DNA of 32,997 bases, taken from positions 94,777 through 127,773 of the forward strand of contig MFRS01000003.1 in NCBI GenBank assembly GCA_001784635.1, read 5' to 3'. Positions within the stretch are counted from its first letter, which is position 1. Each line of letters opens with the position of its first letter. The stretch is from Candidatus Micrarchaeota archaeon RBG_16_49_10. GTDB taxonomy: Archaea; Aenigmatarchaeota; Aenigmatarchaeia; CG10238-14. Position numbers and translations under genes: made by a program. The notes below the pieces were generated by a model. It was given only the letters and a program-made list of their open reading frames with translations. It did not search any database and was not told the DNA's origin. Positions 14,091 to 32,121 of this stretch are shown piece after piece.

Positions 14091-14095
14091 ATTTT

Positions 14096-14809: not shown

Positions 14810-15461
14810 AACAAGAGAAATTGTGATTCCGGGAGAGAAAATAGACAACGCCAAGAGCGTGAAGGCCGGCTATGGGACTTATGAGGAAGACGGGAAGATA
14901 TTCTCAAAGTTCGTGGGTATACCCAAGAAGTCGGGGGACTTCATCTCGGTGATCCCGCTTTCTGGCGTTTATTTGCCAGCCATAAACGACAAAATAATAG
15001 CCATAGTCAAGGATGTGGAGAAATTTGGTTGGATACTCGACATAAACTCGCCATGGAACGGGTTTTTGTCCCTTTCCGAAGGGGTTGACGACTATGTCGA
15101 TTTGAAGAAGGTGGATTTAAAGAGGTACTTCAACAAGGATGACATAATATATACCCAGGTTAAGGAGGTCAGGAATGGCGGGGATGTCCAAATGACCATG
15201 AAGACCAGCATCGCCAGGAAGCTGAAGGGTGGCGTCCTGATAAAGATAACGCCAAGCAAGGTCCCAAGGCTGATTGGCAAGGAAGGGAGCATGGTCAACA
15301 TGATAAAGGAAAAGACCAACACTGTGATTTGCGTGGGGCAAAATGGTATCGTCTGGGTTTCAGGCGAGAACATCAAGAAGGCGATTAAAGCGATTAGGAC
15401 TATCGACGAAAAGTCCCACATGTTTGGCTTGACCGACGAGATATCGAACTTATTGAGCTGA
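14802..15461 (+). CDS. rrp4: Exosome complex RNA-binding subunit Rrp4
   Basis: S1/KH architecture; IVIPGEKI, PSKVPRLIGKEGSMVNMIKEKTNTVICVGQNGIVWV. Confidence 0.93.
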   Translation: MNKTREIVIPGEKIDNAKSVKAGYGTYEEDGKIFSKFVGIPKKSGDFISVIPLSGVYLPAINDKIIAIVKDVEKFGWILDINSPWNGFLSLSEGVDDYVDLKKVDLKRYFNKDDIIYTQVKEVRNGGDVQMTMKTSIARKLKGGVLIKITPSKVPRLIGKEGSMVNMIKEKTNTVICVGQNGIVWVSGENIKKAIKAIRTIDEKSHMFGLTDEISNLLS

Positions 15462-15466
15462 TTTGT

Positions 15467-16180
15467 ATGGGGAAAACAGAGCAAAAAATGATTGCAAACG
15501 GGAAAAGGTTGGATGGCAGAGGCCCTCTTGACCTTAGGGAAATAGAGATGAAGGTCGGCGTCATACCTAACGCCAACGGCTCTTCTTATGTAAGGTTTGG
15601 GAAAACGGCTGTTATAGCTGGTGTCTACGGCCCAAGGCCGCTGTTCCCAAGGTTCCTCAGGGAATCGGACACGGGGATTCTGAAGGTCAGATACAACATG
15701 ATTCCGTTCTCTGTGGATGACAGAAAAAGGCCGGGGCCGTCCAGAAGGGAGACCGAGATATCAAAGGTCATAAGGATGGCTTTCGAGGGCAACCTATTCC
15801 TCAAGAACTACCCACAGACCGGAGTGAACCTTTATCTGGAGGTCATCGAGGCCGATGGATCCACAAGAGTGACTAGCATAAACGCGGCTTCCTTGGCCTT
15901 GGCGGATGCCGGTGTCCCTATGCGCGACTTCGTGGTGGGACTATCAGGGGGCAAGATTGATGGTACTTTGATTCTTGACTTGAATGGGCTTGAGGACAAC
16001 AACTCAGACGCCGACATGCCAATGGCGGTGCTGCCCACAAAGAAGGAGGTCACGCTGCTGCAGATGGACGGTAGGATGAACCCAGAGGAGCTTAAGGATT
16101 TGATAAAGCATGTGATTGACGCTTCCGGGGCCATCTATGAAAAGCAGGCAGAGGCGTTGAGGAAAAAGTATATAGAGTGA
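15467..16180 (+). CDS. rrp41: Exosome complex exonuclease Rrp41
   Basis: RLDGRGPLDLREIEMKVGVIPNANGSSYVRFGKTAVIAGVYGPR...RRETEISKVIRMAFE. Confidence 0.95.
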   Translation: MGKTEQKMIANGKRLDGRGPLDLREIEMKVGVIPNANGSSYVRFGKTAVIAGVYGPRPLFPRFLRESDTGILKVRYNMIPFSVDDRKRPGPSRRETEISKVIRMAFEGNLFLKNYPQTGVNLYLEVIEADGSTRVTSINAASLALADAGVPMRDFVVGLSGGKIDGTLILDLNGLEDNNSDADMPMAVLPTKKEVTLLQMDGRMNPEELKDLIKHVIDASGAIYEKQAEALRKKYIE

Positions 16181-16184
16181 TTTT

Positions 16185-16967
16185 ATGAGGAAAAATTACA
16201 TATTGGATCTGTTGAAGAACGACGAGAGGCTGGATGGAAGGAAGCTTGACGAGTACAGGGAAATCGAGATCGAGGTCAACCCAGTATCGAAGGCCGAGGG
16301 ATCAGCCCGCGTGAGGATTGGTAAGACGGACGTCATTATCGGGACAAAAATGGATTTTGGAACGCCATTCCCCGATACGCCAAACGAGGGCACTATAAAG
16401 AGCGAGGCCGAGTTCATGCCAATAGCATCCGAGGACTTCGAATCAGGCCCGCCTGGAGAAGACGCCATAGAGCTTGCGAGGGTTGTCGACAGGGCCATAA
16501 GGGAATCGCAGTGCCTTGACCTTAAAAGCCTTTGCATAACCCCTGGGGAGAAAGTTTGGTCCATATCCTTGGACACGATCATACTCAACCACGACGGCAA
16601 CTTAATAGACGCCGCAACAATTGGGGCTATGGTGGCCCTGCTAAACTCAAAAATACCGGAGTTGGAAGATGATAAAATAGTGAGGGACAAGCACAGCGGG
16701 AAACTCCCAGTAAGCTCGAAAGCCGTCAACGTGACTGTGTGCAAGTTCGAGGACAAGTTCATCCTTGACCCCACGAGAGAGGAAGAGGAGGTCTTCGACA
16801 CGAAGATGTGCATCGGGGTGAGGGACGATGGCAAGGTGGTCTCAATCCAGAAGATGGGGCCGGGCTCCCTGAAGGACAGCGAAATTTACGACATGATAGA
16901 CATAGCCATCAAGAAATCCAAAAACCTTTTCAAACTGGTGGGCAAGGATGGGAAGAAAGATATTTAG
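16185..16967 (+). CDS. rrp42: Exosome complex subunit Rrp42
   Basis: RLDGRKLDEYREIEIEVNPVSKAEGSARVRIGKTDVIIGTKM; follows Rrp41. Confidence 0.94.
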   Translation: MRKNYILDLLKNDERLDGRKLDEYREIEIEVNPVSKAEGSARVRIGKTDVIIGTKMDFGTPFPDTPNEGTIKSEAEFMPIASEDFESGPPGEDAIELARVVDRAIRESQCLDLKSLCITPGEKVWSISLDTIILNHDGNLIDAATIGAMVALLNSKIPELEDDKIVRDKHSGKLPVSSKAVNVTVCKFEDKFILDPTREEEEVFDTKMCIGVRDDGKVVSIQKMGPGSLKDSEIYDMIDIAIKKSKNLFKLVGKDGKKDI

Positions 16968-17112
16968 CAGGAAGATCAGGCAGATAAAGGCCGGCAAGAT
17001 TAGGCTTGCGCCCAGGTGGGTCGACATCAAGAAGTTCGGCATTAAGAGGGCGAGGAACAGAAGAGTGGCGGTCAACAGGAGGAGCTGGAGAAGGACCAAA
17101 CTCAAAATCTAG
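16948..17112 (+). CDS. rpl39e: Large ribosomal subunit protein L39e (54 aa)
   Basis: Manual translation MGRKIFSRKIRQIKAGKIRLAPRWVDIKKFGIKRARNRRVAVNRRSWRRTKLKI; C-terminal NRRSWRRTKLK is L39e-typical; below the ORF-track length cut-off. Confidence 0.88.
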   Translation: MGRKIFSRKIRQIKAGKIRLAPRWVDIKKFGIKRARNRRVAVNRRSWRRTKLKI

Positions 17113-17148
17113 TTAAAACCTATATACTTTATTCCCCAATTATTATCA

Positions 17149-17589
17149 ATGGACTGGAAAAACTTTGGCAAGGGTGTATTCTTAGTCAATGTTCTTGGGA
17201 TTGTCTATGACCCCAAGACCAAAAAAATACTCATCGGTAAGAGGGAGAAGGACAAGTACGTTCCTCAACTTTCTTGGTGTTTCCCTGGAGGCGGACCAAC
17301 CTACAAACACTCGCTGAGCATGTCCCTCAGGATGAGCATAAAGAGGAAGACCAATCTTGATGTGAACGTCTTAGACTGTATCTTTGCTAGGACGCTCCCA
17401 GAGAACCCTGAGATACTTCTCATATACTACTTCTGCGAGGTCGTCGAGGATAGCGAGAAGCCGAAGGCGATGGACGACTTGAAGGAGATAAAGTGGGTGA
17501 AGCCGACGGAAGCCACAAAGAGCTTCACGACTTCGGTCGACCCTGTTATATCCGACTTTTTGGACGCGCTGGAAAAGGGGGAAATTTAG
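17149..17589 (+). CDS. Nudix-fold protein with degenerate Nudix box
   Basis: GVFLVNVLGIVYDPKTKKILIGKREKD...WCFPGGG...LKEIKWVKPTEA; Nudix-like framework, catalytic residues missing. Confidence 0.75.
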   Translation: MDWKNFGKGVFLVNVLGIVYDPKTKKILIGKREKDKYVPQLSWCFPGGGPTYKHSLSMSLRMSIKRKTNLDVNVLDCIFARTLPENPEILLIYYFCEVVEDSEKPKAMDDLKEIKWVKPTEATKSFTTSVDPVISDFLDALEKGEI

Positions 17590-17618
17590 TTAAATTTGTC
17601 TTCTTAAATATTTCTATT

Positions 17619-18977
17619 ATGTATTCTGAACAGATTCTCGCGGTCCTAAAAAAGATGAAGGTCAAAGTCGGCGACAGGGTGAACGTGACCAAGGGAAAAG
17701 AAATATTTGAAGGGGTTCTCATGCCCCGCATAGAGGTCGGAGACCAAGACACCCTATCGATTAAGCTGAATAGCGGGTACAATGTGGGTCTTAGGTTTGA
17801 CAGGTCGGTCAATATTGAAAGGGTTGGTGATGGCCCGAAACTGGGTTCCATTCCGGCATTGAAACTGAAGGAGAGTAAAGAACTACCTTCCATTTCCATG
17901 ATATCGACAGGCGGCACCATCGGCACGCACGTCGATTACAAGACCGGCGGGGTGTTCATGTGCAGGTCACCGGAGGAGATATTGAGCACGGCACCGGAAA
18001 TCCAGAGCATTGTCAATTTGAAAAACATAATCAGACCTTTCACTCTGGCGAGCGAGGACATGCTACCTAGTGATTGGCAGAAAATGGCTGAGCTTTCCGC
18101 AAAAGAGCTAAACAAGGATGTCGAAGGAATCATCATCACCCATGGCACGGACGTTTTGCACTACACCTCATACGCGATGTCATTCATGCTCAAAAACCTC
18201 ACCAAACCTATCGCTATCGTGGGAGCCCAACGCTCCCCAGACAGGGGAAGCTTCGACGGCGCTATGAACCTCATATGCGCGGCGCATTTCATTGGGCATT
18301 CGGATGTCGCGGAGGTCTGCGTCGTCATGCACGGGAGCAGTAACGATGATTACTGCCTTGCCCACAGGGGCACCAAGGTCAGAAAGATGCACACGTCCAG
18401 GAGGGACGCCTTCCGTTCCATCAATGACATACCGCTGCTTAAAATTTGGCCCAACGGAAAAATAGAAACTTTGAACTCAAATTATAGAAAAAAATCCAAA
18501 GGGAAAGTAGTCGCCGACACTAAGTTCGAGCCGAAAGTATCTTTGGTGAAGGCCTATGTGGGTTCAGACCCGGAGATTATCGACTGGCATGTCAAGAGAG
18601 GCTTTAAGGGCATCGTTGTAGAGGGTACTGGTCTTGGCCATGTTCCGACCGGTGAGAGCGGCATAACCAAGGACCCCTTAAGGAAAAAATATTCTTGGAT
18701 ACCGCACATCAAAAGCGCGGTCGATTCAGGGGTCGCTGTCGTCATGACTTCCCAGGCGATGTATGGGAGGGTCAACCCATACGTATACAGGAACTTGAGG
18801 CTCGCAAGCAACGCTGGCACAATATTCGGTGAGGACATGCTGCCCGAGGCGGCGTATGTGAAGCTCGGGTGGGTCCTGGGGCACACCAAGAACCTTAAGA
18901 AAGTCAGGGAGCTGATGGCGCAAAATCTGGCTGGCGAGATTAACAAAAGACTGGATACCGATTTGTTTCTAATCTAG
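17619..18977 (+). CDS. gatD: Glutamyl-tRNA(Gln) amidotransferase subunit D
   Basis: L-asparaginase-like STGGTIGTHVDYKTGGV..., IITHGTDVLHYTSYAMSFML; N-terminal GatD domain. Confidence 0.95.
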   Translation: MYSEQILAVLKKMKVKVGDRVNVTKGKEIFEGVLMPRIEVGDQDTLSIKLNSGYNVGLRFDRSVNIERVGDGPKLGSIPALKLKESKELPSISMISTGGTIGTHVDYKTGGVFMCRSPEEILSTAPEIQSIVNLKNIIRPFTLASEDMLPSDWQKMAELSAKELNKDVEGIIITHGTDVLHYTSYAMSFMLKNLTKPIAIVGAQRSPDRGSFDGAMNLICAAHFIGHSDVAEVCVVMHGSSNDDYCLAHRGTKVRKMHTSRRDAFRSINDIPLLKIWPNGKIETLNSNYRKKSKGKVVADTKFEPKVSLVKAYVGSDPEIIDWHVKRGFKGIVVEGTGLGHVPTGESGITKDPLRKKYSWIPHIKSAVDSGVAVVMTSQAMYGRVNPYVYRNLRLASNAGTIFGEDMLPEAAYVKLGWVLGHTKNLKKVRELMAQNLAGEINKRLDTDLFLI

Positions 18978-18985
18978 TGGTCTTT

Positions 18986-20455
18986 ATGGATTATGACGAG
19001 ATTGGACTGAGAGTTGGGATAGAGGTCCATCACAGCCTCGACACCGAAAGGAAGCTCTTCTGCAGCTGCCCCACCTTACTGAAGACAAAGGATAATCCTG
19101 ACCTCATTCTTGAAAGGAAGCAGAGGTTTGTGGCTGGGGAAACAGGGGAAATAGACGCTGCGGCCTTTGAGGAGACAAAAAAAGGTAAAAAAATCATTTA
19201 TGAGGCGTATAAGGACTGCAACTGCCTTGTCGAGACTGACGAGGAGCCCCCGCATGCGCTGAATGTGGAGGCGTTGAAGGTGACTTTGATAATCGCAGAG
19301 CTGTTCCACTGCAGGATTGTCGATGAAATCCAGGTGATGAGGAAGACGATAGTCGATGGCAGTCTCCCTTCTGGGTTCCAAAGGACTATACTAATTGGGG
19401 TTAATGGGTGGGTGCAGACCAGCCAAGGAGAGGTCGAGATAGAGGCAATAGCGCTTGAGGAGGATTCAGGGAGGCTGGTCGCAAGCGACAAAGAATCGCT
19501 GACCTTTAGGCTTGACAGGCTCGGTACGCCTGAGGTGGAGGTTGCGGTTGGGAAGGGCATCAAATCCCCGGAACATGCTAGGGAAGTGGCGAAAAAGATA
19601 GGCGACACAGTCCGCTCCACAGGGAAGGCCATCGTCAGGGAGGGTTCTGTCAGGCAGGACGTCAACGTCTCGATAAAGGGCGGGGATAGGGTGGAGATAA
19701 AGCATGTCCCAAGCCTTTCATTGATACCTGCGGTCATAGAGAGGGAGATAACCAGGCAGCAAACCATAATTAAGGCCGGCAAAAAGGTTTCACGGGACGT
19801 TCGCAAGGTCTTACCAGACGGCTCAACGGAATTTTTGAGGCCTCTGGCTGGGGCAGCCAGAATGTACCCTGAAACAGACATCATCCCGATGGCAACTGGA
19901 CCTCTCCTAGGCTGGGTCAGGAAGAATCTACCCGAGACTCCGGAGAAGAGGTTACAAAGGTATGTGAAGAAGGGCCTTTCGGAGGAGATGGCCAGGCAGA
20001 TGGTGGATTCGGAGTATTTGGGCCTTTTTGACAGGGTTTCCGCCAAGTTCAAGGTGGAGCCAGCCTTAATAGCCGGCGTATTCGTCAGCACTTTGAGGGA
20101 CTTGGAGAGAAGAGAGGGCTTAAATGTTTCTATTTTGGCTGAAAAGGACTTTGAAGAGTTGTTTTACCTATTGAAAGGCAAAAGACTTGTAAAAGAAGCT
20201 ATCCCAGAGGTTTTGAAGCTGAAGATTGGGAATCCAGAAATAAAGATATCGGACGCAGTGAAGAAATTGGGTCTGGGCGGGCTTTCGGATGAGGAACTGG
20301 CAGCAATAATAGCCAAAAAAATAAAGGAGAACCCAAGTCAACCTGAAGGCAAGATAGTAGGATTCGTCATGAAGGATGTAAGGGGCAATGCAGACCCGGC
20401 TAGGGTGATTCAGCTTACCAAAAAAATGTTCAATAGCCCTCGTCAATCTCCTTGA
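18986..20455 (+). CDS. gatE: Glutamyl-tRNA(Gln) amidotransferase subunit E, compact form
   Basis: GIEVHHSLDTERKLFCSCPTLL, KTIVDGSLPSGFQRT, RPLAGAARMYPETDI, GatB/Yqey-like tail; follows gatD. Confidence 0.95.
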   Translation: MDYDEIGLRVGIEVHHSLDTERKLFCSCPTLLKTKDNPDLILERKQRFVAGETGEIDAAAFEETKKGKKIIYEAYKDCNCLVETDEEPPHALNVEALKVTLIIAELFHCRIVDEIQVMRKTIVDGSLPSGFQRTILIGVNGWVQTSQGEVEIEAIALEEDSGRLVASDKESLTFRLDRLGTPEVEVAVGKGIKSPEHAREVAKKIGDTVRSTGKAIVREGSVRQDVNVSIKGGDRVEIKHVPSLSLIPAVIEREITRQQTIIKAGKKVSRDVRKVLPDGSTEFLRPLAGAARMYPETDIIPMATGPLLGWVRKNLPETPEKRLQRYVKKGLSEEMARQMVDSEYLGLFDRVSAKFKVEPALIAGVFVSTLRDLERREGLNVSILAEKDFEELFYLLKGKRLVKEAIPEVLKLKIGNPEIKISDAVKKLGLGGLSDEELAAIIAKKIKENPSQPEGKIVGFVMKDVRGNADPARVIQLTKKMFNSPRQSP

Positions 20456-20771
20456 GCAGCTTGTCTTTCCTTTTCTCCAGCTTGTCTATCTCCTTTTCCA
20501 AAAAACCAGCTGTTTTCACATCTTTCGCCTTTATGACGTCCTTCCTTTTGGTTTTCAGCTCGGCGATTGTCTTCCTCGTCTCCTGCAGCTCCAATTGTTT
20601 GTCTTCTAACTCCTTGGTCTCAGTCTCGAACCTTTTCGATATCTCCTTCGTCCTCTTTATTCCCCACTTCGAGGCTAGGTAGACGAAAATGATCACAAAA
20701 ACCAACAGTATGGCAGCCGCTCCAATGGACCCCACAAAGGACACAATGCTCATGATTGTATTTCGCATCAA
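20430..20771 (-). CDS. Single-TM protein with cytoplasmic coiled coil
   Basis: One hydrophobic helix (AAAILLVFVIIFVYLASKW) then a charged heptad-like helix to the C-terminus. Confidence 0.75.
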   Translation of the reverse strand: MMRNTIMSIVSFVGSIGAAAILLVFVIIFVYLASKWGIKRTKEISKRFETETKELEDKQLELQETRKTIAELKTKRKDVIKAKDVKTAGFLEKEIDKLEKRKDKLLKEIDEGY

Positions 20772-20797: not shown

Positions 20798-21469
20798 CTA
20801 ATCCCTTCCGAAGGCCAGGTCGTCCTTCATGACCTCGCTCTCGGACATGAGCTTGGATACCTCCTGCCTAAGCTCGGTGATCCTCCTTTCAAGCTTCTCC
20901 TCCCTCTCCTTAAGGCCCTTCATTTTGGATGGGCTGACGGCAAAATCGGTCATGTCCTCCCTGACAATCCTCAACTCCTCGTGCGCCTCGGAAAGCTCCT
21001 TCTTCAAAGTCTCCATCTGCTTGGAGGCCGCCCCGTAGGCGTCAGCCTTGGTCTTCCAGTAGCCGGTCTTGGCTCTGCCGAAGAACAGGGTCCCTAGCAC
21101 GAACATAACGGCGAATATTATGACGACGGCGAAAGTCCCTAAGCTAGAAACCGTAAACACTAAATGCGATAGGACGCCGTAGTACATCAGTGATAGCGCA
21201 AAGAGCAGCGCGATTATCACCTTGACGTTCTTCTTCTTGAAGATGTTAAGCTCTGTGAGTATGCCGAAGACGATGGTGAATGATATGAGGAACGGCACGA
21301 TGGCAAAGAAGATGACCTGCCTCAAGGTGCTGAACTTTATCTGGGGTTTGAACAGGTCGTTCATGACTTTGTAGAACCAATATGGCTGAAATCTGAACGG
21401 CAGGGAAAATGCCGACGGAAGGAAGACCACCAAGATGATAGCAAGATATATGAGGGTACTCTTCTTCAT
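20798..21469 (-). CDS. ELxIF-family membrane coiled-coil protein (copy 1)
   Basis: N-terminal hydrophobic signal, GILTELNIFKKKNVKVIIALLFALS, TM pair, GYWKTKADAYGAASKQMETLKKELSEA coiled coil. Confidence 0.8.
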   Translation of the reverse strand: MKKSTLIYLAIILVVFLPSAFSLPFRFQPYWFYKVMNDLFKPQIKFSTLRQVIFFAIVPFLISFTIVFGILTELNIFKKKNVKVIIALLFALSLMYYGVLSHLVFTVSSLGTFAVVIIFAVMFVLGTLFFGRAKTGYWKTKADAYGAASKQMETLKKELSEAHEELRIVREDMTDFAVSPSKMKGLKEREEKLERRITELRQEVSKLMSESEVMKDDLAFGRD

Positions 21470-21500
21470 GAAGGTAATTTGGGTTTATTCGATATTTAAT

Positions 21501-22418
21501 TTATGCATATAGGCTGTAGGCCTGCTTTTGGAGGATTTCGAAGAACTTATCCCTTACATGGCCCCTTATTTCCCTACCCAAGGATTTCGTGCCGTTTATC
21601 CCGACATTGTAGGCGTAGCTTATCAGCTTGCCGACATCAGTGGTTCCGTACTTCTCGAGCAGCACGCTTTCGACAAGCTTCTTGGGCTTGTAGTATGGGT
21701 GGTTCTCCCCTACTGTCTCCCTACCCAGGATCTGTTCTGTGAAAAGGCTGTTGAGCCCCTCTTCCGTTATGACGTGAGCCTCGGCTGTTGGGTCGCCCTT
21801 GTATTCCCTCATCATCTGGTCCAAAGGCGAGAATATACCAAGTGAGACGAGTATCACATGGCCGAGCTCGTGAGCCAGAATAGCTTCGGTGTCTCCTTCC
21901 TCTATGCTGGCCAAAGCCCTCCTGTAACCTCTGTAGAGCTCTGTCGCTTCCAGCCTCGCCCTATAGGCTTCCAACGGGTTTTCCGCAACCTTCCTGCATA
22001 TTTCCGCAGCCTTCTTGTATGCATCAATGTACTTTTTGACATCCGACCCGCCTTCTAGGTAGGCTCTGTGTAGCAAAAGGACATCTTCGTCATCTTTGTC
22101 ATATTCCGAGTAAGCCCCCAAAGCTTGGGGCAGGAACGGCAATGTGTAGACACCTTCTGAAGTGTACAAGGTATATGGCTGGCCGTCAAGTTCGCCGGAA
22201 ACCCTTACCTCCCTGGGGAGCACATAGTCAAGGTTATAGCGCCTTAGGTATCCCTTTACAACTTCATAAGTATCCCTGAGGGCCTTCCTTGTGGCCGCCC
22301 TATCCTCCTCCTTCCCGGACTGCACGACTATGTTGACGTCGTCTATGCTGACCGGCAGACTAGGTGGACTGAAGGTGTAAAGATGTTTTTCCAGTTGCCC
22401 CAAGTCCTGTTTTAGCAT
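21501..22418 (-). CDS. Predicted gluzincin-like zinc metallopeptidase
   Basis: EAILAHELGHVIL (HExxH) followed by ITEEGLNSLFTEQ, typical third-ligand helix. Confidence 0.65.
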   Translation of the reverse strand: MLKQDLGQLEKHLYTFSPPSLPVSIDDVNIVVQSGKEEDRAATRKALRDTYEVVKGYLRRYNLDYVLPREVRVSGELDGQPYTLYTSEGVYTLPFLPQALGAYSEYDKDDEDVLLLHRAYLEGGSDVKKYIDAYKKAAEICRKVAENPLEAYRARLEATELYRGYRRALASIEEGDTEAILAHELGHVILVSLGIFSPLDQMMREYKGDPTAEAHVITEEGLNSLFTEQILGRETVGENHPYYKPKKLVESVLLEKYGTTDVGKLISYAYNVGINGTKSLGREIRGHVRDKFFEILQKQAYSLYA

Positions 22419-22520
22419 GCCAAATACCCTTCTGAGTTTAAGTTTCTAAATATAAACTATCAACTAGTAGTGATATATATACTATTTATATATTTATATA
22501 ATGGAGCATATAGATTACTG

Positions 22521-22540
22521 TCACCACTTTTATATGGTGA
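22521..22540. promoter_or_regulatory. Inverted repeat TCACCA-N8-TGGTGA in promoter region
   Basis: tcaccacttttatatggtga, perfect 6-bp arms, upstream of ORF at 22584. Confidence 0.5.
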
Positions 22541-22583
22541 ATAATACAAAAATTTAAATACTCGCCTATAGAATAAGGAGTCT

Positions 22584-23096
22584 ATGAAAAGACTAACCGA
22601 TCACACTCTTTATGAATTACTGGGCCTTCAAAAAGATGCTTCTGAGGCTCAAATCAGAAAAGCACATAGGATGATTATGGCGTTGATTCAGGGAGAGGCA
22701 TCGGTTGCTCCTGAAATAGTAAAGGAATATAAGACTAGGTGCCCCCATTTACCAATCGGCGAAAATTTGACAAAAAATGAAAGAGACAAAATACGAGACC
22801 TTCTTGATGGAGCTAAATCCGTCCTATTCGATTCCGAGAGGAGAAAACTATATGACCTTTATGGGCAAAACGGCCTTACTAGAGCAAAATACTCTTTCGG
22901 AACTGCAGGCCTCGGAGTTATGGCGGCATGTCTTGCGTACAGCGGAATAAGAGACTTTTTAGGCTTTGATGCAGAAGAAAAGGAAACAAAAAATGAAAGA
23001 GTCCTCAGATACTTATGGGGAACAGGAAAGTTAGGATTAGCTGCTCTTGCAGGATATGGCTCATACAGTTATTTTCAGAAAACCAAAAATAGCTAA
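22584..23096 (+). CDS. J-domain-like membrane protein lacking HPD
   Basis: LYELLGLQKDASEAQIRKAHRMIMALIQ...IRDLLDGAKSVLFDSERRKLYDLYG J-like; SD-like aaggag before ATG; two C-terminal hydrophobic segments. Confidence 0.7.
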   Translation: MKRLTDHTLYELLGLQKDASEAQIRKAHRMIMALIQGEASVAPEIVKEYKTRCPHLPIGENLTKNERDKIRDLLDGAKSVLFDSERRKLYDLYGQNGLTRAKYSFGTAGLGVMAACLAYSGIRDFLGFDAEEKETKNERVLRYLWGTGKLGLAALAGYGSYSYFQKTKNS

Positions 23097-23113
23097 ATCA
23101 AAATAAAAAATCA

Positions 23114-23803
23114 CTAAACGGTATAGCCAGTCGGCGCTTCAGCCTCTTTCTTTTCCATTCTATAATCCATTTCAGACAAATGCGATCCGTAGGCTATCAA
23201 GTCCCATGGAATGACCTGTACAATTTGCGTAAGCGTGAATAGTGCGGCTCCTGCAAAATTCTTAATCTTATCTGATTTTTTGGAATAAACAGGTCGCCCA
23301 GTTTTGGGGTCTATCGCCATTAAATTTAGTGATAACTGCCCTAATATAGCCGCCAGTGGCCGTGGGATAGCTGCTATGGCATCAGCCTTCTTGTCTCTAG
23401 CCCCTTCTCTTCGATACTCACTCCTATTGTAAAATCCCTCGAAACCATAGAAGTTGAGCATGACTTGGAGAACTTGCCCAGCCCCAATTAAACCCGCCGG
23501 TAGACGTTCTTGTTTACCCATCATCCATCTCCAAAAACTAAGTAGTTGCAATCCTGCTATCGGTATCATGGCCAAGTCAGCATATGCTGTGCTATGTATT
23601 CTTTCTCCTAAATACTCATTAGTCGTAATTTGATTCCGATAACGATCATAAGCAGTCGTGAAATCAATAGACGGATTCCTCCTATGAGTAGAATATGCCG
23701 CCGTGTATAATGACGTGCTTCCATATTTCCTAACAGCGTTGCTAATCCCGTTACCGGCTTTCCCAACGTAATCTCTAAAATCTATCTTACTCAACTTCCT
23801 CAC
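23114..23803 (-). CDS. Hypothetical membrane-associated protein
   Basis: Long ORF with coding-like composition, several hydrophobic segments; overlaps next upstream gene. Confidence 0.7.
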   Translation of the reverse strand: MRKLSKIDFRDYVGKAGNGISNAVRKYGSTSLYTAAYSTHRRNPSIDFTTAYDRYRNQITTNEYLGERIHSTAYADLAMIPIAGLQLLSFWRWMMGKQERLPAGLIGAGQVLQVMLNFYGFEGFYNRSEYRREGARDKKADAIAAIPRPLAAILGQLSLNLMAIDPKTGRPVYSKKSDKIKNFAGAALFTLTQIVQVIPWDLIAYGSHLSEMDYRMEKKEAEAPTGYTV

Positions 23804-24473
23804 CCTCTACAATCTTGTCCGCTTCCCGCTTCACATACCTGAGCATTTCCCTCATCTTTATCGTGTCCTTACTGTAGGTCCCGCCGTTGTAAGCCATCTG
23901 CTCGGCCTGTCCCCTAACTTGGTTAAGCTGCAAAAGGATTTGGCCCTTTTCCTCTTTCCCGTAGGCCTCGAGTATCTTCAATGTCCTCAAGTCCAAGTCG
24001 TCGACCTTTTGGGCGGCCACATCGCTACCCCACAACAAGCTCAGCAAGGTTTTTGGGTCAAAATTAGTGCCATCAACCGTAAAACCCCCGCTTCCCGCAA
24101 GGCCCTCAGCCGACTTCATCACAGTCTCGTACAGTTTCTCCGTCCCTCTCCTTGCCTGGTGAAAGTTCCACAGTTCCATCAGCAAAAGCGCGCCCGAGGC
24201 AATCTTCCTGTCATCAGTAGTGAACTCCTTGTCGAGCTGGACCTTTCCCAAGAGTTCAAGTGAAAGCTCGTAGAATGGAGGCATCTGCTCCATCCCGTCC
24301 TTGTACCTCAGGCCCCAGACTTCCAATAGGCAGCCTTCATATTCGCCTTCGTTGTACATCCTTGCAGCCCTGTTGTAACCCCTTATGGAGCTTGCAGGGA
24401 CGTCTACCATGCCGTTGAAGAACTTGCTCATCAATCCAGTCCCGAAGGTCGGTGCCTTGTAAACCATAATCAT
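23787..24473 (-). CDS. Hypothetical helical soluble protein
   Basis: 228-aa ORF coupled to neighbours by short overlaps; no recognised domain. Confidence 0.75.
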   Translation of the reverse strand: MIMVYKAPTFGTGLMSKFFNGMVDVPASSIRGYNRAARMYNEGEYEGCLLEVWGLRYKDGMEQMPPFYELSLELLGKVQLDKEFTTDDRKIASGALLLMELWNFHQARRGTEKLYETVMKSAEGLAGSGGFTVDGTNFDPKTLLSLLWGSDVAAQKVDDLDLRTLKILEAYGKEEKGQILLQLNQVRGQAEQMAYNGGTYSKDTIKMREMLRYVKREADKIVEGEEVE

Positions 24474-25495
24474 CGCCTATACATATTCCTTGAATAATTT
24501 TTAGATTCATATTTTAGGGCATTAACACCATTGTAACTCAAATCGGCAGAAGCTGAGATTCTCCTTCTGTAGGCTGCACCTTTGGCTGCCTCCGTGATGG
24601 CCCATGCCAATAATGGCATGTAAAACGGTATCGCTTCCATTCCCATATCAATGTAATCCAAGCCTTTCCCAGCCTTTTCGCCTATGCCTTTAACTTCTTT
24701 GGCTAGACCGGCAGTTCCTTTTCTTACCCCTTCCGTTTTATTAACGACCCAGTTTCTTGGGTTTCTTAAAATCCCAGTTTTTACTTGTTTCCAATCTCCC
24801 AAATTCCCAGTTGTAGCGGAGAAAGCCGTCACTAACTCTAATATATTTTTGCCAGCTTCAATCGCGATTGTTGCATTAACTATACCATTTGCCAATTTCT
24901 GAACTTTATAGATATTTGGGTTGTAGTCGCCATACTCTTGAGCCATGAGTGTTATTAAGTCACGAACTCTATCGGCAGTTATTATACCAACGAGACCCTC
25001 AATCTTCTGGTATGCTTTGCTCAGATTGCCTTTTGCCTTTACATAGACATTCAATTCCCTTAAATCCCTCTGCCAACCTGCAACTTTACCTTCCCATCCG
25101 AGATCATAATCTTCATAATATCCTAGAGCACCACTTATTTTAGGATCTTTTATGTCAGAATATTTTACATTGTGATCTGAAGCAAGTATGGACAGTTCCT
25201 CCATATCAATTCCAGTCAACCCATTCTTCCTCTTGTATTTGTCCACACCAATTTTTGCCCTATCTTCGTCTATCCTAAATTTGGAGCCGGTGGCATTCAA
25301 AACGTCTGAAATCGCGGCGCTTGACAACTCATAACCACTCACATAAACGTAGTCAAAAACTTCGTTCAAGGCGTCATTCTGCTCTTCTTTTGTCAAATGC
25401 GTCCCAAATTCATTTGAAAAATTTTTGGCACCCCAGCTAAACAAACTCCTTAGGATTCTCTCGAAACCTTGCGAATTTGGAGCCTTCACAACCAT
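24470..25495 (-). CDS. Hypothetical helical protein with C-terminal hydrophobic segment
   Basis: 341-aa ORF, 4-nt overlap with downstream 23787-24473; no recognised domain. Confidence 0.75.
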   Translation of the reverse strand: MVVKAPNSQGFERILRSLFSWGAKNFSNEFGTHLTKEEQNDALNEVFDYVYVSGYELSSAAISDVLNATGSKFRIDEDRAKIGVDKYKRKNGLTGIDMEELSILASDHNVKYSDIKDPKISGALGYYEDYDLGWEGKVAGWQRDLRELNVYVKAKGNLSKAYQKIEGLVGIITADRVRDLITLMAQEYGDYNPNIYKVQKLANGIVNATIAIEAGKNILELVTAFSATTGNLGDWKQVKTGILRNPRNWVVNKTEGVRKGTAGLAKEVKGIGEKAGKGLDYIDMGMEAIPFYMPLLAWAITEAAKGAAYRRRISASADLSYNGVNALKYESKNYSRNMYRR

Positions 25496-25539
25496 ATTAA
25501 AACCTACTTATATCTGAGTTAAAGATTAAAAAAGAAAAA

Positions 25540-25920
25540 TTAAACAGATAATTTTTCAACTAGTTTTTCAGATTCCCTGAAGCTCTTGTAGCTCTCATAT
25601 GAAAGCATAGTAGCTCCTACCAGTTTAGCTAGTCCTGACACATACCTGAGCACTTTTCTGGTTGTGGTTTCTTTCCCGTGATCCCCAAAGAAATCTCTTG
25701 CAGCCCAATATGTTAAACCAACCGCGGCACCAGCTTCAACAGCCCCAGCACCATATCGTCTCAGACCACTTGATTCGTAACTTTCATTCAAATCTATTAT
25801 TTTTTTGTATGGATATGAGCGAATTTTATGGTATCTATCACTAAATTTTTGTTTGAAAGGGTTTTTTTCTGTGGTGCTTTCTGCTTCAACTCCATCAACT
25901 TTTTCACCTTTTCTAGTCAT
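25540..25920 (-). CDS. Small membrane protein sharing C-terminal module with the J-like protein
   Basis: SGLRRYGAGA...ARDFFGDHGKETTTRKVLRYVSGLAKLVGATMLSYESYKSF. Confidence 0.75.
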   Translation of the reverse strand: MTRKGEKVDGVEAESTTEKNPFKQKFSDRYHKIRSYPYKKIIDLNESYESSGLRRYGAGAVEAGAAVGLTYWAARDFFGDHGKETTTRKVLRYVSGLAKLVGATMLSYESYKSFRESEKLVEKLSV

Positions 25921-25940
25921 ATTTTATATCACCTAATATG

Positions 25941-25987
25941 CCACTAAATAGTAGTGCTAATATATAAACATTTGTATTGTTTAGTGG
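25941..25987. promoter_or_regulatory. Inverted repeat CCACTAAA...TTTAGTGG spanning the promoter of the 25540-25920 gene
   Basis: 8-bp perfect arms at 25941-25948 and 25980-25987 flank an AT-rich TATA-like element. Confidence 0.45.
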
Positions 25988-26158
25988 ACAAATAAAAGCT
26001 GAAATCCAACCTAAAATGGGTAAAGAAACTATTTTAGCTTTGATTGGCTTGATTTTAACAATTTGGTAGTTCAGTGATAATCTATACTAAAAAACATATA
26101 TAAAAAAATATAGAAAAATATTTATACCCCAAATACTACTATACGATAGTGACAAAAT

Positions 26159-26677
26159 ATGATAGTACGCCAAAATGATGTAGGACGTGCGAAATACACG
26201 GGAAGAGGGGCAGCTAGACCTGCCGTTGCACCAAATATACTATTCTCGTTTGCTGGCGTTAGCTATGTAAACAGAAATTATGGTGCAAGGAGGATCAATG
26301 AACTAAAAGTCTCAGATGCCTATGCGGTTGCTGGTTTGGTCGCTGGCAGTTTAGCTTTGTACGCCCTGGCGAGAAAGTACTGGCCCAGCATGAAGTCAAG
26401 GATAAGAAGGACCGCAGAGTCGACGGAAGACGGTATGAGGGAATATGTCGATTCGGAGAGGGGCTTGATTGAGGAATACAACAGCGGAATGGCCGACGCG
26501 AGCCGCGACCTTCAGAGAGTGGACGTAAGGGACGAGAAGGCATCGACCCAAGTCGAGGCCGCAGAGAAGAAGATAGAGATATACAAGGAGCTCAAGGAAG
26601 ACTCGCAGAGCGATTTGAGATACCAGCAGAGGACAGCCAGGCGAAGAGACATGTTCAGGAAGTCTGCATTGTTTTGA
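26159..26677 (+). CDS. Single-TM protein with long C-terminal coiled coil
   Basis: AYAVAGLVAGSLALYALARKYW TM followed by charged helical tail; TATA-like element ~30 nt upstream. Confidence 0.75.
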   Translation: MIVRQNDVGRAKYTGRGAARPAVAPNILFSFAGVSYVNRNYGARRINELKVSDAYAVAGLVAGSLALYALARKYWPSMKSRIRRTAESTEDGMREYVDSERGLIEEYNSGMADASRDLQRVDVRDEKASTQVEAAEKKIEIYKELKEDSQSDLRYQQRTARRRDMFRKSALF

Positions 26678-26697
26678 TTTTTTTCTTTCCTTTTTTT
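26678..26697 (+). terminator. Oligo-T archaeal-type terminator
   Basis: tttttttctttccttttttt directly after stop codon. Confidence 0.6.
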
Positions 26698-26734
26698 ACT
26701 AACCTATAAAACCTTATTCCTAGAATAGAGTTGC

Positions 26735-27589
26735 ATGCCCAAAAAGCAGGCGGGTAGAATTAAGTTAGGTGTCCATTATAGGGTAGTTCCTTGGGCACAC
26801 CGCGATTACATTTTGACTAGGCTGCCGTTCGGGAAGTACCCCCCTTACCACAAGCTGAACACGAGGCACGATTTTCTGGCGGACGTAAAGATGGAAGGGG
26901 AGAATTTCGCGACCATAACTGAGCCAGAGATCATGGGCTACGAGGATGTCTACAAAAGGAGGCTCATAAAGGTCGGGGCTGATTTGTCGACCCCCGCCGA
27001 ATGGACGCTTGATTTGCCGAACGAGTACCAGATAAACTCCGGGGAGCTAAACGAAGGCAGGCTGCTTTCGCTTGTGGTCGAGCTTTACGCGACGGAGGAG
27101 GCTGGGAGGGGGGAGCGGGAGGAATACCACCTTGACCAGAACAGGAAAAGCTTCAGCCAGCATCCCATATCCATCCCGATAAACATGACGAGGAAGATAC
27201 TCGGCGAGAAGGTGGAGCTGATGGAGCTCGGCGAGCTTTACAGTGCGGACTTCAGCATAAAGCCAAACACATCTCTGGAGTTGGATGAGGACGTAATCCC
27301 GCAGAGGGTGAAGACCTTGGGCGCTGTCGCCTACACGCTGAGGGATTCCGATGGCGAACTATACGCAAAGATATACAGGGAGCCTGTTAGCAGGCTGCTG
27401 AGCTTCGGCATCGCAAGGAGATACGGCATCGAGATACCCAAAAAATATTCAAAGGAAAGGGAGCTGATACTTTTCGTTATCGCCCTGACCGACTTCATAG
27501 ACAGCAAGAAGAGCATAAGGAGGAACCCGCAAGTTTACGATAACCAGAACAACATCCCGACCCCGGAAAGGATACTGGGATACAATTAA
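26735..27589 (+). CDS. Hypothetical protein, soluble, no recognised domain
   Basis: 284-aa ORF, codon style similar to the housekeeping block. Confidence 0.78.
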   Translation: MPKKQAGRIKLGVHYRVVPWAHRDYILTRLPFGKYPPYHKLNTRHDFLADVKMEGENFATITEPEIMGYEDVYKRRLIKVGADLSTPAEWTLDLPNEYQINSGELNEGRLLSLVVELYATEEAGRGEREEYHLDQNRKSFSQHPISIPINMTRKILGEKVELMELGELYSADFSIKPNTSLELDEDVIPQRVKTLGAVAYTLRDSDGELYAKIYREPVSRLLSFGIARRYGIEIPKKYSKERELILFVIALTDFIDSKKSIRRNPQVYDNQNNIPTPERILGYN

Positions 27590-27982
27590 CTATTTACTTT
27601 TTTTGGCCTTTTCCTTTATCCTATCGGCTATCTTCCCAAGGTAGTCGAAATAGGTCACCAGCCCGACAAAATCCCCTTTATTATCCACCACGGGCAGCGA
27701 CATGAACCCTTTCTTGAACATAAGGTCCGCAGCCTTTTCCAAATCATCCTCCAGGCTAACCGTCACGACAGGGCTGGTCATTATATCCCTGAACTTCAAT
27801 CTCTCGTAGTCAGCCTCGCTCTTTATGCTCCTTACTAGGTCGTTGTTCGTCACTATACCCACAGGCTTCCTGCCCTCGACGACCACAAGGATGTGGCAGT
27901 ACATGTTCCTGACCGAGGAGAGCTTCTCGTCGGCCTTCACCTGGCGGTGCTCGTCGTCGATTCTGCAGTCCGCAATCTTCAT
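27590..27982 (-). CDS. Tandem CBS-domain protein
   Basis: ILVVVEGRKPVGIVTNNDLVRSI, DIMTSPVVTVSLEDDLEKAADLMFKKGFMSLPVVDNKGDFVGLVTYFDYL. Confidence 0.9.
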   Translation of the reverse strand: MKIADCRIDDEHRQVKADEKLSSVRNMYCHILVVVEGRKPVGIVTNNDLVRSIKSEADYERLKFRDIMTSPVVTVSLEDDLEKAADLMFKKGFMSLPVVDNKGDFVGLVTYFDYLGKIADRIKEKAKKSK

Positions 27983-28020
27983 GAAATAAATATATCCTTC
28001 GGAGATAAATATTGTTTATT

Positions 28021-28644
28021 ATGGGAATGTCCAAATACGAGGCCAGCGCGCTCCTTTGGCTCTTGGCAAGATACAACCCAGGCGTAGCCCATCTCATCAG
28101 GGACCCGGAGAACAAGAAGAAGCTTACATCCGAGATAGAGGAGAGCCTTAAGGCGATAGCCTACGGCATTTCCCACGACGCGCTGGACGCAATCTGGGAG
28201 AAGGTGGAGGATGCGGCTGAAATCGGGGCTTTGGTCCCCACGGGAGGAACTGGGTCAGTTTCCATGGAGGCCGCAAGTTTCATAGCTAAGATGATGGTGC
28301 TCGGCCCCCTTGCGAGGAAATACTACTCATCTATTGAAAAGGTCCGTCCAGGCGTCTCCAAGGCTTTGGAGGCCTACCAGAACTTTTCAAATCTCCCACT
28401 ACTGGATAGCATACTCACAGTAATCCCGGAGAAGGGCATAGCGGCCATATACGCTTTCGTCAGGAACATCTACAGCATCATAAAGCAGGGGAAGAGCTTC
28501 GAGAGGGATGCCAAATACGGCAGAGGGGACTATGTGGACGACCTCTACGGCAAGGGGATGGAAGGGTACAGGGACCAGACTAGCACACACCCACTGAGGC
28601 CTGCGCTTGAGGATTACGGGGTTTCAAAAGCAAAGAAGAAGTGA
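28021..28644 (+). CDS. Hypothetical helical protein
   Basis: 207-aa ORF from ATG 28021, coding-like composition; no recognised domain. Confidence 0.75.
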   Translation: MGMSKYEASALLWLLARYNPGVAHLIRDPENKKKLTSEIEESLKAIAYGISHDALDAIWEKVEDAAEIGALVPTGGTGSVSMEAASFIAKMMVLGPLARKYYSSIEKVRPGVSKALEAYQNFSNLPLLDSILTVIPEKGIAAIYAFVRNIYSIIKQGKSFERDAKYGRGDYVDDLYGKGMEGYRDQTSTHPLRPALEDYGVSKAKKK

Positions 28645-28710
28645 ACACCTTTCTGAAATAATTAAAACTTGGAAAAGAAAGTTATTTTAAGAATTCGCTA
28701 TGTGAAAAGT

Positions 28711-29472
28711 ATGGGAAAACGTCCTAAAGTAAATATAACCAATGTTATACCTACTGGTCCACCAAAAAGTGGGTTTGGCAGATTTATAGGTGGTTATAAC
28801 GACCTTCTTGTAGCTGTCGGTGGTACCGTTCAACTTTTGATGACCGCCATACAACAAGTCATACCAGCAGTCACGCCTCAATATCAACTCCAAAAAGAAC
28901 CAGTTCAAGTATTATCAGTTCACCCATACGATGGATTACTCAAAATAGCGAGCGAGGCTGAAGCGATTTGCATAAAATACGGAAATACCCAACTTTTAAA
29001 CCAAATAAGGGAACAGACAGATACGTTAAGACTACAGGCAGACCGTTTAATTGGATACCGAAAGCTTTTGGAAGACCCAACTGTTCATGACAAACTTTCC
29101 AATTACGATTTACAACCGTCAGATCAAAGACCAAGGGACTCTCTAGAACCATACTTAAATCAACCAAGAGACGAAGTTTATAGGAATGAATTAAAATCAA
29201 ATTTGTACACTCCATACAATCCTTCGTCAGTTTCTCCGCAAGCTCCGGTTGCTCAACAAAAGAAAAAGACGGACCCAACAACAACTACAGCAGTGGTAAC
29301 TCTTTTAATCTCGACATTAACCCTGCTCTACCTTCCGTTCTCTTCCCTGACCGCGACGGCAAAAGTAGCTTCACCCACGTCCTCGGCCTTGCCGATATTC
29401 ATAGGATTGGCTTCTATAATAGCCGTCTCGATAGTCTTCTTGGCAAGAAGGAAGTCACATGTTCCTGGTTGA
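28711..29472 (+). CDS. Hypothetical protein with C-terminal TM segments
   Basis: Helical N-terminal part, Pro/Gln/Ser-rich linker, two C-terminal hydrophobic segments ending LARRKSHVPG. Confidence 0.7.
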   Translation: MGKRPKVNITNVIPTGPPKSGFGRFIGGYNDLLVAVGGTVQLLMTAIQQVIPAVTPQYQLQKEPVQVLSVHPYDGLLKIASEAEAICIKYGNTQLLNQIREQTDTLRLQADRLIGYRKLLEDPTVHDKLSNYDLQPSDQRPRDSLEPYLNQPRDEVYRNELKSNLYTPYNPSSVSPQAPVAQQKKKTDPTTTTAVVTLLISTLTLLYLPFSSLTATAKVASPTSSALPIFIGLASIIAVSIVFLARRKSHVPG

Positions 29473-30273
29473 CTCGTGCAATTCAGTGAGCCTCTCCTGG
29501 ACGTCCCTTCTCCTATCCTGCAGCTCCCTAAGACTGGCTTCCAAGGCGACCCTTTTGTTCGGGTCTTTTTCAGTAGCTAATTTGTGAGCAGCCTCAGCAA
29601 CAGCCTCGCTCATCTCGGCTAATTCTAACCTAAGGTTCTTGGTTTCGTCATGAAAAGCGGAGTAGACGCCAGCAGTGGTAGACCATTGTAGCTTTTTTTT
29701 AAGGAAGAAATAGTACAAACCAAATGTGAATATTAAACCAAACGCTAAGAGCGAAGCCCAACCCATTCCGTAAAAATATAGAAACAACAGTGTATAGGCG
29801 CAAAGTACGGTAGTACCTTGAAGAAGTGGCATTATAGGTTGTGCAAGTGGCCCTAACCACGCTACCGGTAGTGGGACAATCATAACTAAGGCTACCGTGA
29901 GAGCTAGCCAGACATTAGTTATCTGCGTTGACCTGAAAATTTTAAGCTCGTTCAAAAAACCATACACAATAAAAAAAACAGAGCCGGGAATAAGCACAAT
30001 AAGGAGCAGATTTACTATGCTAGCTAAAATTGGTGGTAGCACCATGTTGGCATAGTTCGTCAGTGCCAAGGCTATATTCGGACCCATAATAAAAATCGTA
30101 AGGGCCTTCAACCATACAGGAACATTATTTAATAAGTCAGATTTTGTATTGGTCTGGCTTCTGCTCCCTGGACCACTTGGGTCTAGACTGGTAGCAAACC
30201 GAAGTCCTATCAGAGACAACAACAAAATTAGAATAAGTCCCCGCCAAACCCTTCTCATGAAATAATTATGCAA
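29455..30273 (-). CDS. ELxIF-family membrane coiled-coil protein (copy 2)
   Basis: Signal peptide; VFFIVYGFLNELKIFRSTQITNVWLALTVAL; LQWSTTAGVYSAFHDETKNLRLELAEM; coiled coil. Confidence 0.82.
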   Translation of the reverse strand: MHNYFMRRVWRGLILILLLSLIGLRFATSLDPSGPGSRSQTNTKSDLLNNVPVWLKALTIFIMGPNIALALTNYANMVLPPILASIVNLLLIVLIPGSVFFIVYGFLNELKIFRSTQITNVWLALTVALVMIVPLPVAWLGPLAQPIMPLLQGTTVLCAYTLLFLYFYGMGWASLLAFGLIFTFGLYYFFLKKKLQWSTTAGVYSAFHDETKNLRLELAEMSEAVAEAAHKLATEKDPNKRVALEASLRELQDRRRDVQERLTELHESTRNM

Positions 30274-30295
30274 TCCTAACTTTTTAAATTTGGGT

Positions 30296-31042
30296 TTAGG
30301 CCGACCTTAAAGTTCCTCTCATCTCCTCGAGCCTGTCCTCTAAGCTTCTCACATCGTCTTTGAGTTTAGTCACCTGGGCCTCGAGTTCCGCTCTCCTGCT
30401 TGAGCTAGCGGTCCCGGCCATCTTCTCGGTCAGCTCTATTAACAGATCCCTTTTTTGGGCTAGCTCCATCCTCAACCCCTTCACAATCTCGTCATACCCT
30501 GCCGCAACGCTGGCCTGCGAGCCCCACTCAGACTTCCTTCTTTTGTAGTATAACCATGTCCCTACTATGAAAATCAGGGCAAAAAGGAGGACTGCCCATG
30601 TAGTTAATATTTGGAAAACAAAGTTGGCTATCATGTAGGTTACGTGCAGCGGGAAGAGGGAGAAAGACATCAATAAGGCCAGCCAAATATTGGCCTTTCG
30701 TACCCTTCTGAAAATCCTCAGCTCCTCCAAGAAACCGTAGACGATTATGAAAATAGCCAGGAAAGGTAAAATCGCGTACTGAACCAACACCCATATGAGA
30801 GTTAGGTTGAAAATAGTACCATGCGCCCCAGGCTCAAGTTTACTTGCTGGTATCCCAGTAAAGAATGAAAGAAAACCAGCTTTACAACTTTTAGTACCGC
30901 AAGCCTCTGTGCCCTTACACACATTTTGTAAATCCTCTAATGAACATCCTTGTTTCAAGAAAACTAGAGGATTAAATGCAGCGACTACATTCAGAATTAA
31001 CAAAGAGCACAATACCAAACTGACAGATTGGAGTTTTCTCAC
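30296..31042 (-). CDS. ELxIF-family membrane coiled-coil protein (copy 3), Cys-rich exodomain
   Basis: Signal peptide; IFIIVYGFLEELRIFRRVRKANIWLALLMSFSLFPLH; SEWGSQASVAAGYDEIVKGLRMELAQK; coiled coil. Confidence 0.83.
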   Translation of the reverse strand: MRKLQSVSLVLCSLLILNVVAAFNPLVFLKQGCSLEDLQNVCKGTEACGTKSCKAGFLSFFTGIPASKLEPGAHGTIFNLTLIWVLVQYAILPFLAIFIIVYGFLEELRIFRRVRKANIWLALLMSFSLFPLHVTYMIANFVFQILTTWAVLLFALIFIVGTWLYYKRRKSEWGSQASVAAGYDEIVKGLRMELAQKRDLLIELTEKMAGTASSSRRAELEAQVTKLKDDVRSLEDRLEEMRGTLRSA

Positions 31043-31052
31043 TAAATATCAC

Positions 31053-31745
31053 CTATATATCATCCAATTGCTTCATCTGAGCCCTGACATTGCTTATCTC
31101 AGCGTCTATTTTATCTAACCTTTGCGTTATTTGATCCAACCTTTTGCCTCTCGCGTCAGGTATCTCCTCGACTAACAACTTCCTCTCCTCATACAGTTGG
31201 CTCAGTTGCTCTTTAATGGATTTTTTAGCTACAGCTTCGGCTTCCGCAGTCGCGGCGGCCGATGTCCACTGCGACCTTCTGACTACCCCATACTTCCAGA
31301 TACCCACTGCGAAAATAAACGCGAAGACTAGGACAGCCCAAAAGGACATAAGATTGAACGTGACATTAACAAGCCATAAAAACATATGGGTCGGGAGTGT
31401 CGAAAAGGCTATTAAGAAAGACAGAATTCCATTGACCTTCCTAGTCCTCCTGAATATCCTCAATTCCTTGAGGAAGGCATATACAATTATCCAAACGCTG
31501 AAGAACGGTAATATACCAACCCATATAAACATAAACCAATTCTGTGTTGTCGCATCAAAACCAAACCATTCTGCCAAAACCCAAATAACTATATCCCACA
31601 ACCATTGAGGAACATCCTTTAAATCGCTTGGAAATGTCGGGACTGGTCCCCCAGCACCCGGAGTTGGTCCAATACCAAGAACAACATTCAAAGTAAGAGT
31701 TAAAAAAACAAGTAGGAACAGACTTCTTATAAGCTTCTTACCCAT
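31053..31745 (-). CDS. ELxIF-family membrane coiled-coil protein (copy 4)
   Basis: Signal peptide; VWIIVYAFLKELRIFRRTRKVNGILSFLIAFSTLPTH; SQWTSAAATAEAEAVAKKSIKEQLSQL; coiled coil. Confidence 0.83.
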   Translation of the reverse strand: MGKKLIRSLFLLVFLTLTLNVVLGIGPTPGAGGPVPTFPSDLKDVPQWLWDIVIWVLAEWFGFDATTQNWFMFIWVGILPFFSVWIIVYAFLKELRIFRRTRKVNGILSFLIAFSTLPTHMFLWLVNVTFNLMSFWAVLVFAFIFAVGIWKYGVVRRSQWTSAAATAEAEAVAKKSIKEQLSQLYEERKLLVEEIPDARGKRLDQITQRLDKIDAEISNVRAQMKQLDDI

Positions 31746-31818: not shown

Positions 31819-32121
31819 ATGATACCGGCAACTCCAGGGCTATTCGTCTTCATCCCGTCATCAATACTTTTGACGGTCGCCCTATACCACCTCCTAAATG
31901 AACTGAAAATCTTCAACTTCCAGAAGGCCAACATCCCTATAGCCATAGCCATCGCGCTGCCGGCGATGTACTTCCTCTCCTTCCTTTCCCCGTTCATTGG
32001 AGCCGCATCAATCTTCATCATATTCACTACAAGGCCGAAGAAGGAGACCAAGATGCGGCTGGCCATGCTGCTGTCCGCAGGCTACTTTCTGGCGGCCTCC
32101 CTTGTGGTGTACCTCCTCTGA
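31819..32121 (+). CDS. Minimal ELxIF-family TM protein without coiled coil
   Basis: LTVALYHLLNELKIFNFQKANIPIAIAIALPAMYFL resembles the core of copies 2-4; no charged C-terminal tail. Confidence 0.72.
   Translation: MIPATPGLFVFIPSSILLTVALYHLLNELKIFNFQKANIPIAIAIALPAMYFLSFLSPFIGAASIFIIFTTRPKKETKMRLAMLLSAGYFLAASLVVYLL

Follow-up and report, generated by a model that had tools for sequence, protein, structure and literature searches.

What would an archaeon with a 0.92-Mb genome (83% complete) do with four versions of one small membrane protein, three of them encoded head to tail? The question is raised by a 32,997-nucleotide stretch of Candidatus Micrarchaeota archaeon RBG_16_49_10 (contig MFRS01000003.1, here C3, positions 94777-127773; hereafter the window), an organism that, among the named genomes of the public set, stands closest to metagenome-assembled genomes of Candidatus Aenigmatarchaeota/Aenigmarchaeota. 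A previous reading of the window, made without database searches (the sequence-only reading), described four minus-strand open reading frames as divergent paralogues and proposed that they encode subunits of one hetero-oligomeric membrane complex. All four reading frames are present (E1 to E4, Table 1), and the intergenic gaps are as tight as reported, with 22 bp between E2 and E3 and 10 bp between E3 and E4. As set out below, the four proteins belong to a phylum-wide superfamily of membrane hairpin proteins whose genes mostly accompany the ATPase of a type-IV-filament machine.

The relationship between the copies is not in doubt. Every pair was significantly similar by blastp, with E-values of 9e-29 (E3/E4), 7e-25 (E2/E3), 1.5e-15 (E1/E3), 1.9e-14 (E1/E4), 3.6e-8 (E2/E4), and 2e-7 (E1/E2). 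A profile built only from sequences of other genomes scored E4 at 226, E3 at 210, E1 at 150, and E2 at 144 bits, as compared to at most 41 bits for 200 controls shuffled in 10-residue blocks, a procedure that preserves hydropathy and composition. Judged by these scores, E1-E4 are true paralogues, far beyond chance. Across 16 sequences, the invariant or nearly invariant columns are a Pro and an Ile in the first transmembrane (TM) helix, the IF of the turn that follows, two Phe and a Gly in the last TM helix, and the Trp that opens the cytosolic part. An SDLxx(N)VPxWL motif ahead of the first TM helix, claimed for the second and fourth copies, was found in both, and an 'N..LA' motif claimed for all four is exact in E2 and E3 but reads N..LS in E4 and lacks the Asn in E1. 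The annotated start codon of E2 is a TTG, and an in-frame ATG five codons downstream (MRRVWRG) is the likelier start.

The four copies also share one topology. A signal peptide precedes an ectodomain with amphipathic helices, followed by a TM helix that runs out-to-in and ends in ELxIF, a short loop that is strongly basic in E4, a TM helix that returns in-to-out, and a third that runs out-to-in and continues into the cytosol. Hydropathy, loop charges (E4 and E2), and AlphaFold2 models of E4 and E2 (mean predicted local distance difference test scores of 73 and 70.5, respectively) concur on this arrangement, the two models being alike in their signal-peptide helix, weakly ordered ectodomain, two TM helices, long third TM helix, and cytosolic two-helix hairpin. 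The common topology suggested by the sequence-only reading is thus borne out, with one correction: the C-terminal region described as a coiled coil is indeed helical, but because both models show an antiparallel helical hairpin, it is better described as such than as one continuous coil. A Foldseek search with the E4 model, a comparison limited by model quality, returned nothing at E<=0.001; its best match had an E-value of 0.33 and a TM-score of 0.27 (to channel complexes), and an assignment of E4 as a channel by fold was dropped accordingly.

In a maximum-likelihood tree, E1, E2, E3, and E4 form four groups, each a single clade with ultrafast bootstrap values of 84-100. Each group has orthologues in the sister genus g6 (genomes G005, G008, and G010), the E2-E3-E4 order is conserved between the window genus and g6, and one g6 genome holds an additional E4-group copy (G008_d). 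By this tree, the four groups predate the split of the two genera. The E proteins evolve faster than their chromosomal neighbors, with 35-45% identity between genera as compared to 72-73% for SMC and 63-64% for GatE. Tandem copies so diverged and so long retained fit non-redundant subunits and not recent redundant duplicates, since all have one topology in common and have been retained together. The earlier proposal of one hetero-oligomeric complex is consistent with the ancient orthologous groups, the conserved gene order, the single topology, and the co-retention of the copies. Its view of the four as a self-contained family is incomplete, because E1-E4 are one branch of a phylum-wide superfamily tied to a type-IV-filament machine, and a fifth, small member and a CBS-domain partner go with them.

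This superfamily, for which we coin the name KIF, has as its defining feature a TM hairpin whose turn reads P-F...L.(E/K)L(K/R)IF....N, and it takes four forms. Six-helix 'KSKIF' proteins, in which the hairpin reads 'LPF...GLL.KSKIFG...IN..IA', occur in arrays of small membrane proteins; intermediates of 160-180 amino acids (aa) add a C-terminal helical hairpin; E-type proteins have both a signal peptide and a helical hairpin; and the fourth form consists of short proteins called minis. Profile-profile comparison joined E to the intermediates at 2.3e-21, in an alignment that spans the hairpin, third TM helix, and helical hairpin, the intermediates to KSKIF at 4.1e-13, E to KSKIF directly at 3.2e-7, and the minis to E at 6.9e-10, whereas control comparisons with two unrelated membrane families gave only 0.048 and 0.047. 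The KSKIF profile scored E and intermediate proteins at up to 48 bits, as compared to at most 2.5 bits for 29 unrelated multi-TM neighbors and at most 8.5 bits for 360 shuffled sequences, with the exception of one at 20.5 bits. A profile of the intermediates, constructed without sequences from the window, recovered E1, E4, E3, and three KSKIF proteins from the window's own genome. By profile similarity, and by a hairpin in which Pro-Phe, Leu, and the (K/R)IF turn are conserved ahead of an N..(I/L)(A/S) helix, E1-E4 belong to KIF, of which they are a lineage-specific expansion. No Pfam, NCBIfam, or PDB sequence family was matched by E1-E4, for which scans of Pfam, NCBIfam, and PHROGs yielded coiled-coil noise only, or by the KSKIF proteins examined, and searches of solved structures with the E and KSKIF profiles returned only coiled coils and designed proteins. 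Likewise, E1-E4 had no Pfam or NCBIfam match to VirB6/TrbL or other conjugation membrane proteins beyond sub-threshold coil matches. A limited search of the open-access literature found no published description of the family. A degenerate scan with the narrower of two E alignments gave matches on three named Aenigmatarchaeota/Aenigmarchaeota contigs; the broader alignment was too variable for such a scan.

The genomic company of KIF genes was surveyed in 155 genomes of the phylum, 39 of which are of high quality (at least 90% complete). The KSKIF family and an ATPase of 747 aa that is akin to FlaI of the archaellum and to TadA, though below curated cut-offs, are each present in 39/39 of the latter. 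Among the top-ranked matches listed, KSKIF genes lie within 10 kb of the ATPase gene in 43 of the 46 genomes with both on one contig, and E-type genes do so in 10 of 12. Throughout Aenigmatarchaeota, the KSKIF genes are accompanied by this ATPase and by a doubled TadC-like platform gene (a weak PF00482 match). E-type genes of the order's other families adjoin the ATPase and the doubled TadC-like gene together with pilin-like genes and KSKIF arrays. In the window's own genome, three KSKIF copies (C3:219.6-221.3 kb) lie next to an ATPase gene at 222.5 kb (C3:222528-224759), a doubled TadC gene (L068 12774-14708), and pilin-like genes. This whole type-IV-filament locus (L068, C3:212000-231994) encodes, besides the three KSKIF proteins, two coiled-coil proteins, the ATPase (748 aa), the doubled TadC, a 566-aa single-TM protein, and six pilin-like genes, and it extends into the contig end. 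One match elsewhere (L053, genome G049) was to a T2SSF protein and is probably spurious.

Table 1. Features of the E locus in the window (positions are those of the window).
Feature	Coordinates	Strand	Description
E1	20798..21469	-	223 aa; signal peptide, TM, ELNIF turn, TM, TM, cytosolic helical hairpin; apart from the tandem, adjoins gatE
E2	29455..30273	-	272 aa; E1-like architecture; ELKIF; SDLLNNVPVWL ahead of first TM
E3	30296..31042	-	248 aa; E1-like architecture; EELRIF
E4	31053..31745	-	230 aa; E1-like architecture; KELRIF; SDLKDVPQWL ahead of first TM; leads the E4-E3-E2 tandem
mini	31819..32121	+	100 aa; LNELKIF hairpin; lacks both signal peptide and helical hairpin
Two-CBS-domain protein	27590..27982	-	
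Soluble helical protein	28012..28644	+	between the CBS gene and E2
cc1	20430..20771	-	one TM and a coiled coil; kept beside gatE
Putative zinc metalloprotease	21501..22418	-	AHELGHV; weak DUF2268 match; adjoins E1
284-aa island protein	26735..27589	+	

In the window's family, E-type genes lie elsewhere, in the gatE-smc interval, where a CBS-domain gene usually accompanies them. The interval spans ~12 kb in the window and holds zinc-protease-like, DnaJ-domain, and CBS proteins as well as several unknowns. It also holds the mini, a fifth family member absent from the earlier list, which is transcribed divergently from E4 at a distance of 73 bp and lies 66 bp upstream of smc. In sister genus g6, on separate contigs, E1 stands beside gatE (G008, G010) and the tandem beside smc (G005, G008, G010). 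Genome G004 has the order smc, mini, E-type, mini-like, helical-hairpin protein, helical protein, CBS, gatE, and genus g3 has gatE, helical protein, CBS, E-type, mini, and then four tandem proteins of 5-7 TM helices; smc falls outside the stretches read in g3, and the stretch read in G009 has no CBS gene. In all, six genomes, drawn from four genera, have an orthologue of the CBS protein next to E-type genes.

The reading we favor, plausible and close to evenly balanced against everything else, is that E1-E4 are scaffold subunits of a hetero-oligomeric membrane assembly that belonged ancestrally to a type-IV-filament machine and was expanded here as a separate module. E1-E4 and the mini would be its non-redundant subunits in the cytoplasmic membrane, their KIF hairpins packing side by side to surround the platform and ATPase with a scaffold or collar, and the helical hairpins in the cytosol would dock to the ATPase or to neighboring coiled-coil proteins. 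The E-type and mini genes of the window's family would have been relocated to the gatE-smc interval, where the former grew to four, and their products would work with the CBS-domain partner, a domain of the adenylate-sensing type. The module may then form an accessory ring on the same filament machine or constitute a second, derived membrane machine. Three observations weigh against this account: E1-E4 lie ~97 kb from their own ATPase locus and are thus an exception to the linkage pattern; many unrelated proteins (zinc protease, DnaJ-like, CBS) are encoded in the island around them and suggest another or additional function; and no match in Pfam, NCBIfam, PDB, or Foldseek indicates what an E protein does. 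A bolder version, in which KIF is an undescribed class of scaffold that forms a multi-subunit collar around type-IV-filament motors across Aenigmatarchaeota and was duplicated and rewired in the window's family (four E, mini, and CBS sensor) into a second membrane machine, we consider unlikely as a whole.

In the main rival reading, E1-E4, the mini, the CBS protein, and the helical protein could constitute an independent, adenylate-regulated membrane machine, such as a transporter, a channel, or a membrane-organizing complex, that borrowed the KIF fold and has no functional tie to a filament; this is a serious possibility, if a tentative one. The gatE-[CBS, helical, E-type, mini]-smc locus is conserved family-wide away from the ATPase, genus g3 has its four tandem multi-TM proteins at the same place, and transporters and channels are often regulated by CBS-domain partners. 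Against such a machine, the same protein types lie inside the type-IV-filament locus in most other families, and polar residues of the kind that line a transport path were not found among the conserved positions of the hairpin, which are the IF turn, Pro, Phe, and Gly. The g3 proteins themselves are paralogues of ~290-360 aa ('YRGFIVTRLIYIL') at the gatE side of the locus (L073 4018-8086, L074 9817-13875, and L075 9304-13319). The four of 316-343 aa give a collinear alignment with E at only 1.7e-4; they may be E-type subunits that have diverged very far, a suggestive likeness that we do not claim as homology.

That E1-E4 are a surface or adhesion family is improbable. Were they a family in which the signal peptide and a variable ectodomain were the functional parts and the paralogues provided antigen-like variety, the fast evolution of E and an ectodomain that is its least conserved region would be expected, but this ectodomain is only ~40-60 aa long, conservation is centered on the TM and cytosolic hairpins, and the orthologous groups are stable rather than shuffled. 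That the island is an integrated virus or mobile element with holin-, spanin-, or portal-like E proteins, as its cluster of many short unknown genes and weak PHROG matches of the TM-plus-coil part (e.g., an Rz-like spanin at 1e-3) might suggest, is very improbable because the same gatE-to-smc chromosomal interval recurs in several genera, the tree shows vertical descent, and no E relative was found on the viral contigs searched, the PHROG matches being coiled-coil noise and the window having no tRNA and no viral hallmark in Pfam or PHROGs.

The helical protein next to E2 has a clear orthologue in G005, and its similarity to the gene at the same position in genus g3 is suggestive only. The putative zinc metalloprotease likewise has a G005 orthologue beside E1, and a search of 57 relatives found the 284-aa protein in no genus but the window's own and g6. 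The protein cc1 clustered with the E family and was considered as a paralogue, but its 28 bits lie below the shuffled controls and the likeness is at the coiled-coil level only. The DnaJ-domain protein (22584-23096) and a 126-aa protein (25540-25920) have a C-terminal two-helix module in common (40% identity, E 3e-5), and in G010 a DnaJ-like N-terminal part is instead fused to a homologue of the 23114-23803 protein, a different fusion that points to domain shuffling within the island. A 267-aa protein with a C-terminal two-TM tail (28669-29472) has look-alikes by eye in the sister genus (L037 3067-4038 and L039 9943-10569), and these two cluster only with each other. Directly beside the island lies a conserved archaeal housekeeping cluster (11695-20455; ribosomal L15e, Rpp14/Pop5, proteasome, exosome, NUDIX, GatD, and GatE), and much of this gene set flanks the island in relatives too (L073, L074, L075, and L077). 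Positions 1-11679 form a cell-surface sugar and radical S-adenosylmethionine (SAM) region of lower G+C content (~0.30-0.43), in which membrane glycosyltransferases, an asparagine synthase, B12-binding radical SAM proteins, and a methyltransferase were named by eye.

How do KIF loci compare with systems already described? Type IV pili of archaea have been surveyed (PMC4858521), and both pili and archaellum genes have been reported for Aenigmarchaeota (PMC8407114). In DPANN archaea, 'dark matter' islands of type IV pilus genes contain unknown proteins that were proposed to be diverse pilins (Makarova, Wolf, Koonin 2019, PMC6393860). KIF loci resemble these islands in holding a FlaI/TadA-like ATPase, a TadC-like platform, pilin-like genes, and many unrecognized membrane proteins, and differ in that the E1-E4 locus is separate from the pilus locus. 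The label 'pilin' does not suit KIF proteins because they span the membrane several times, lack the class III prepilin cleavage motif, and together make up a single definable superfamily; a type IV pilin has a class III prepilin signal and a single N-terminal helix, whereas E proteins have, by hydropathy and in the models, ordinary signal peptides and three further TM helices. The polytopic partners of secretion ATPases, TadC and GspF (T2SSF), are encoded in the same loci as KIF, yet the E profile reached only 0.048 against the doubled TadC-like family and PF00482 had no match in E1-E4. In the archaellum, the ATPase and platform are encircled by the helical proteins ArlX and ArlC/D/E, some of them anchored in the membrane and some cytosolic. 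The E proteins may be a functional parallel to these but have no sequence similarity to them and, unlike these scaffold proteins, have three TM helices and a signal peptide; the FlaC_arch Pfam model matched only the helical tails of the E proteins, at E-values of 0.19-0.25 and 12.2-12.6 bits, below its cut-off of 27.8.

DPANN archaea are thought to need cell-surface machines to attach to and feed on other cells, and most of the genes for such machines are unannotated. E1-E4 are candidates for unrecognized parts of a type-IV-pilus-like machine, or of a second one that arose from it, and the window's family offers a clear case of duplication and subfunctionalization of such subunits. What had been anonymous membrane proteins thereby become a defined superfamily tied to a recognizable ATPase, one that is open to modeling, tagging, and testing.

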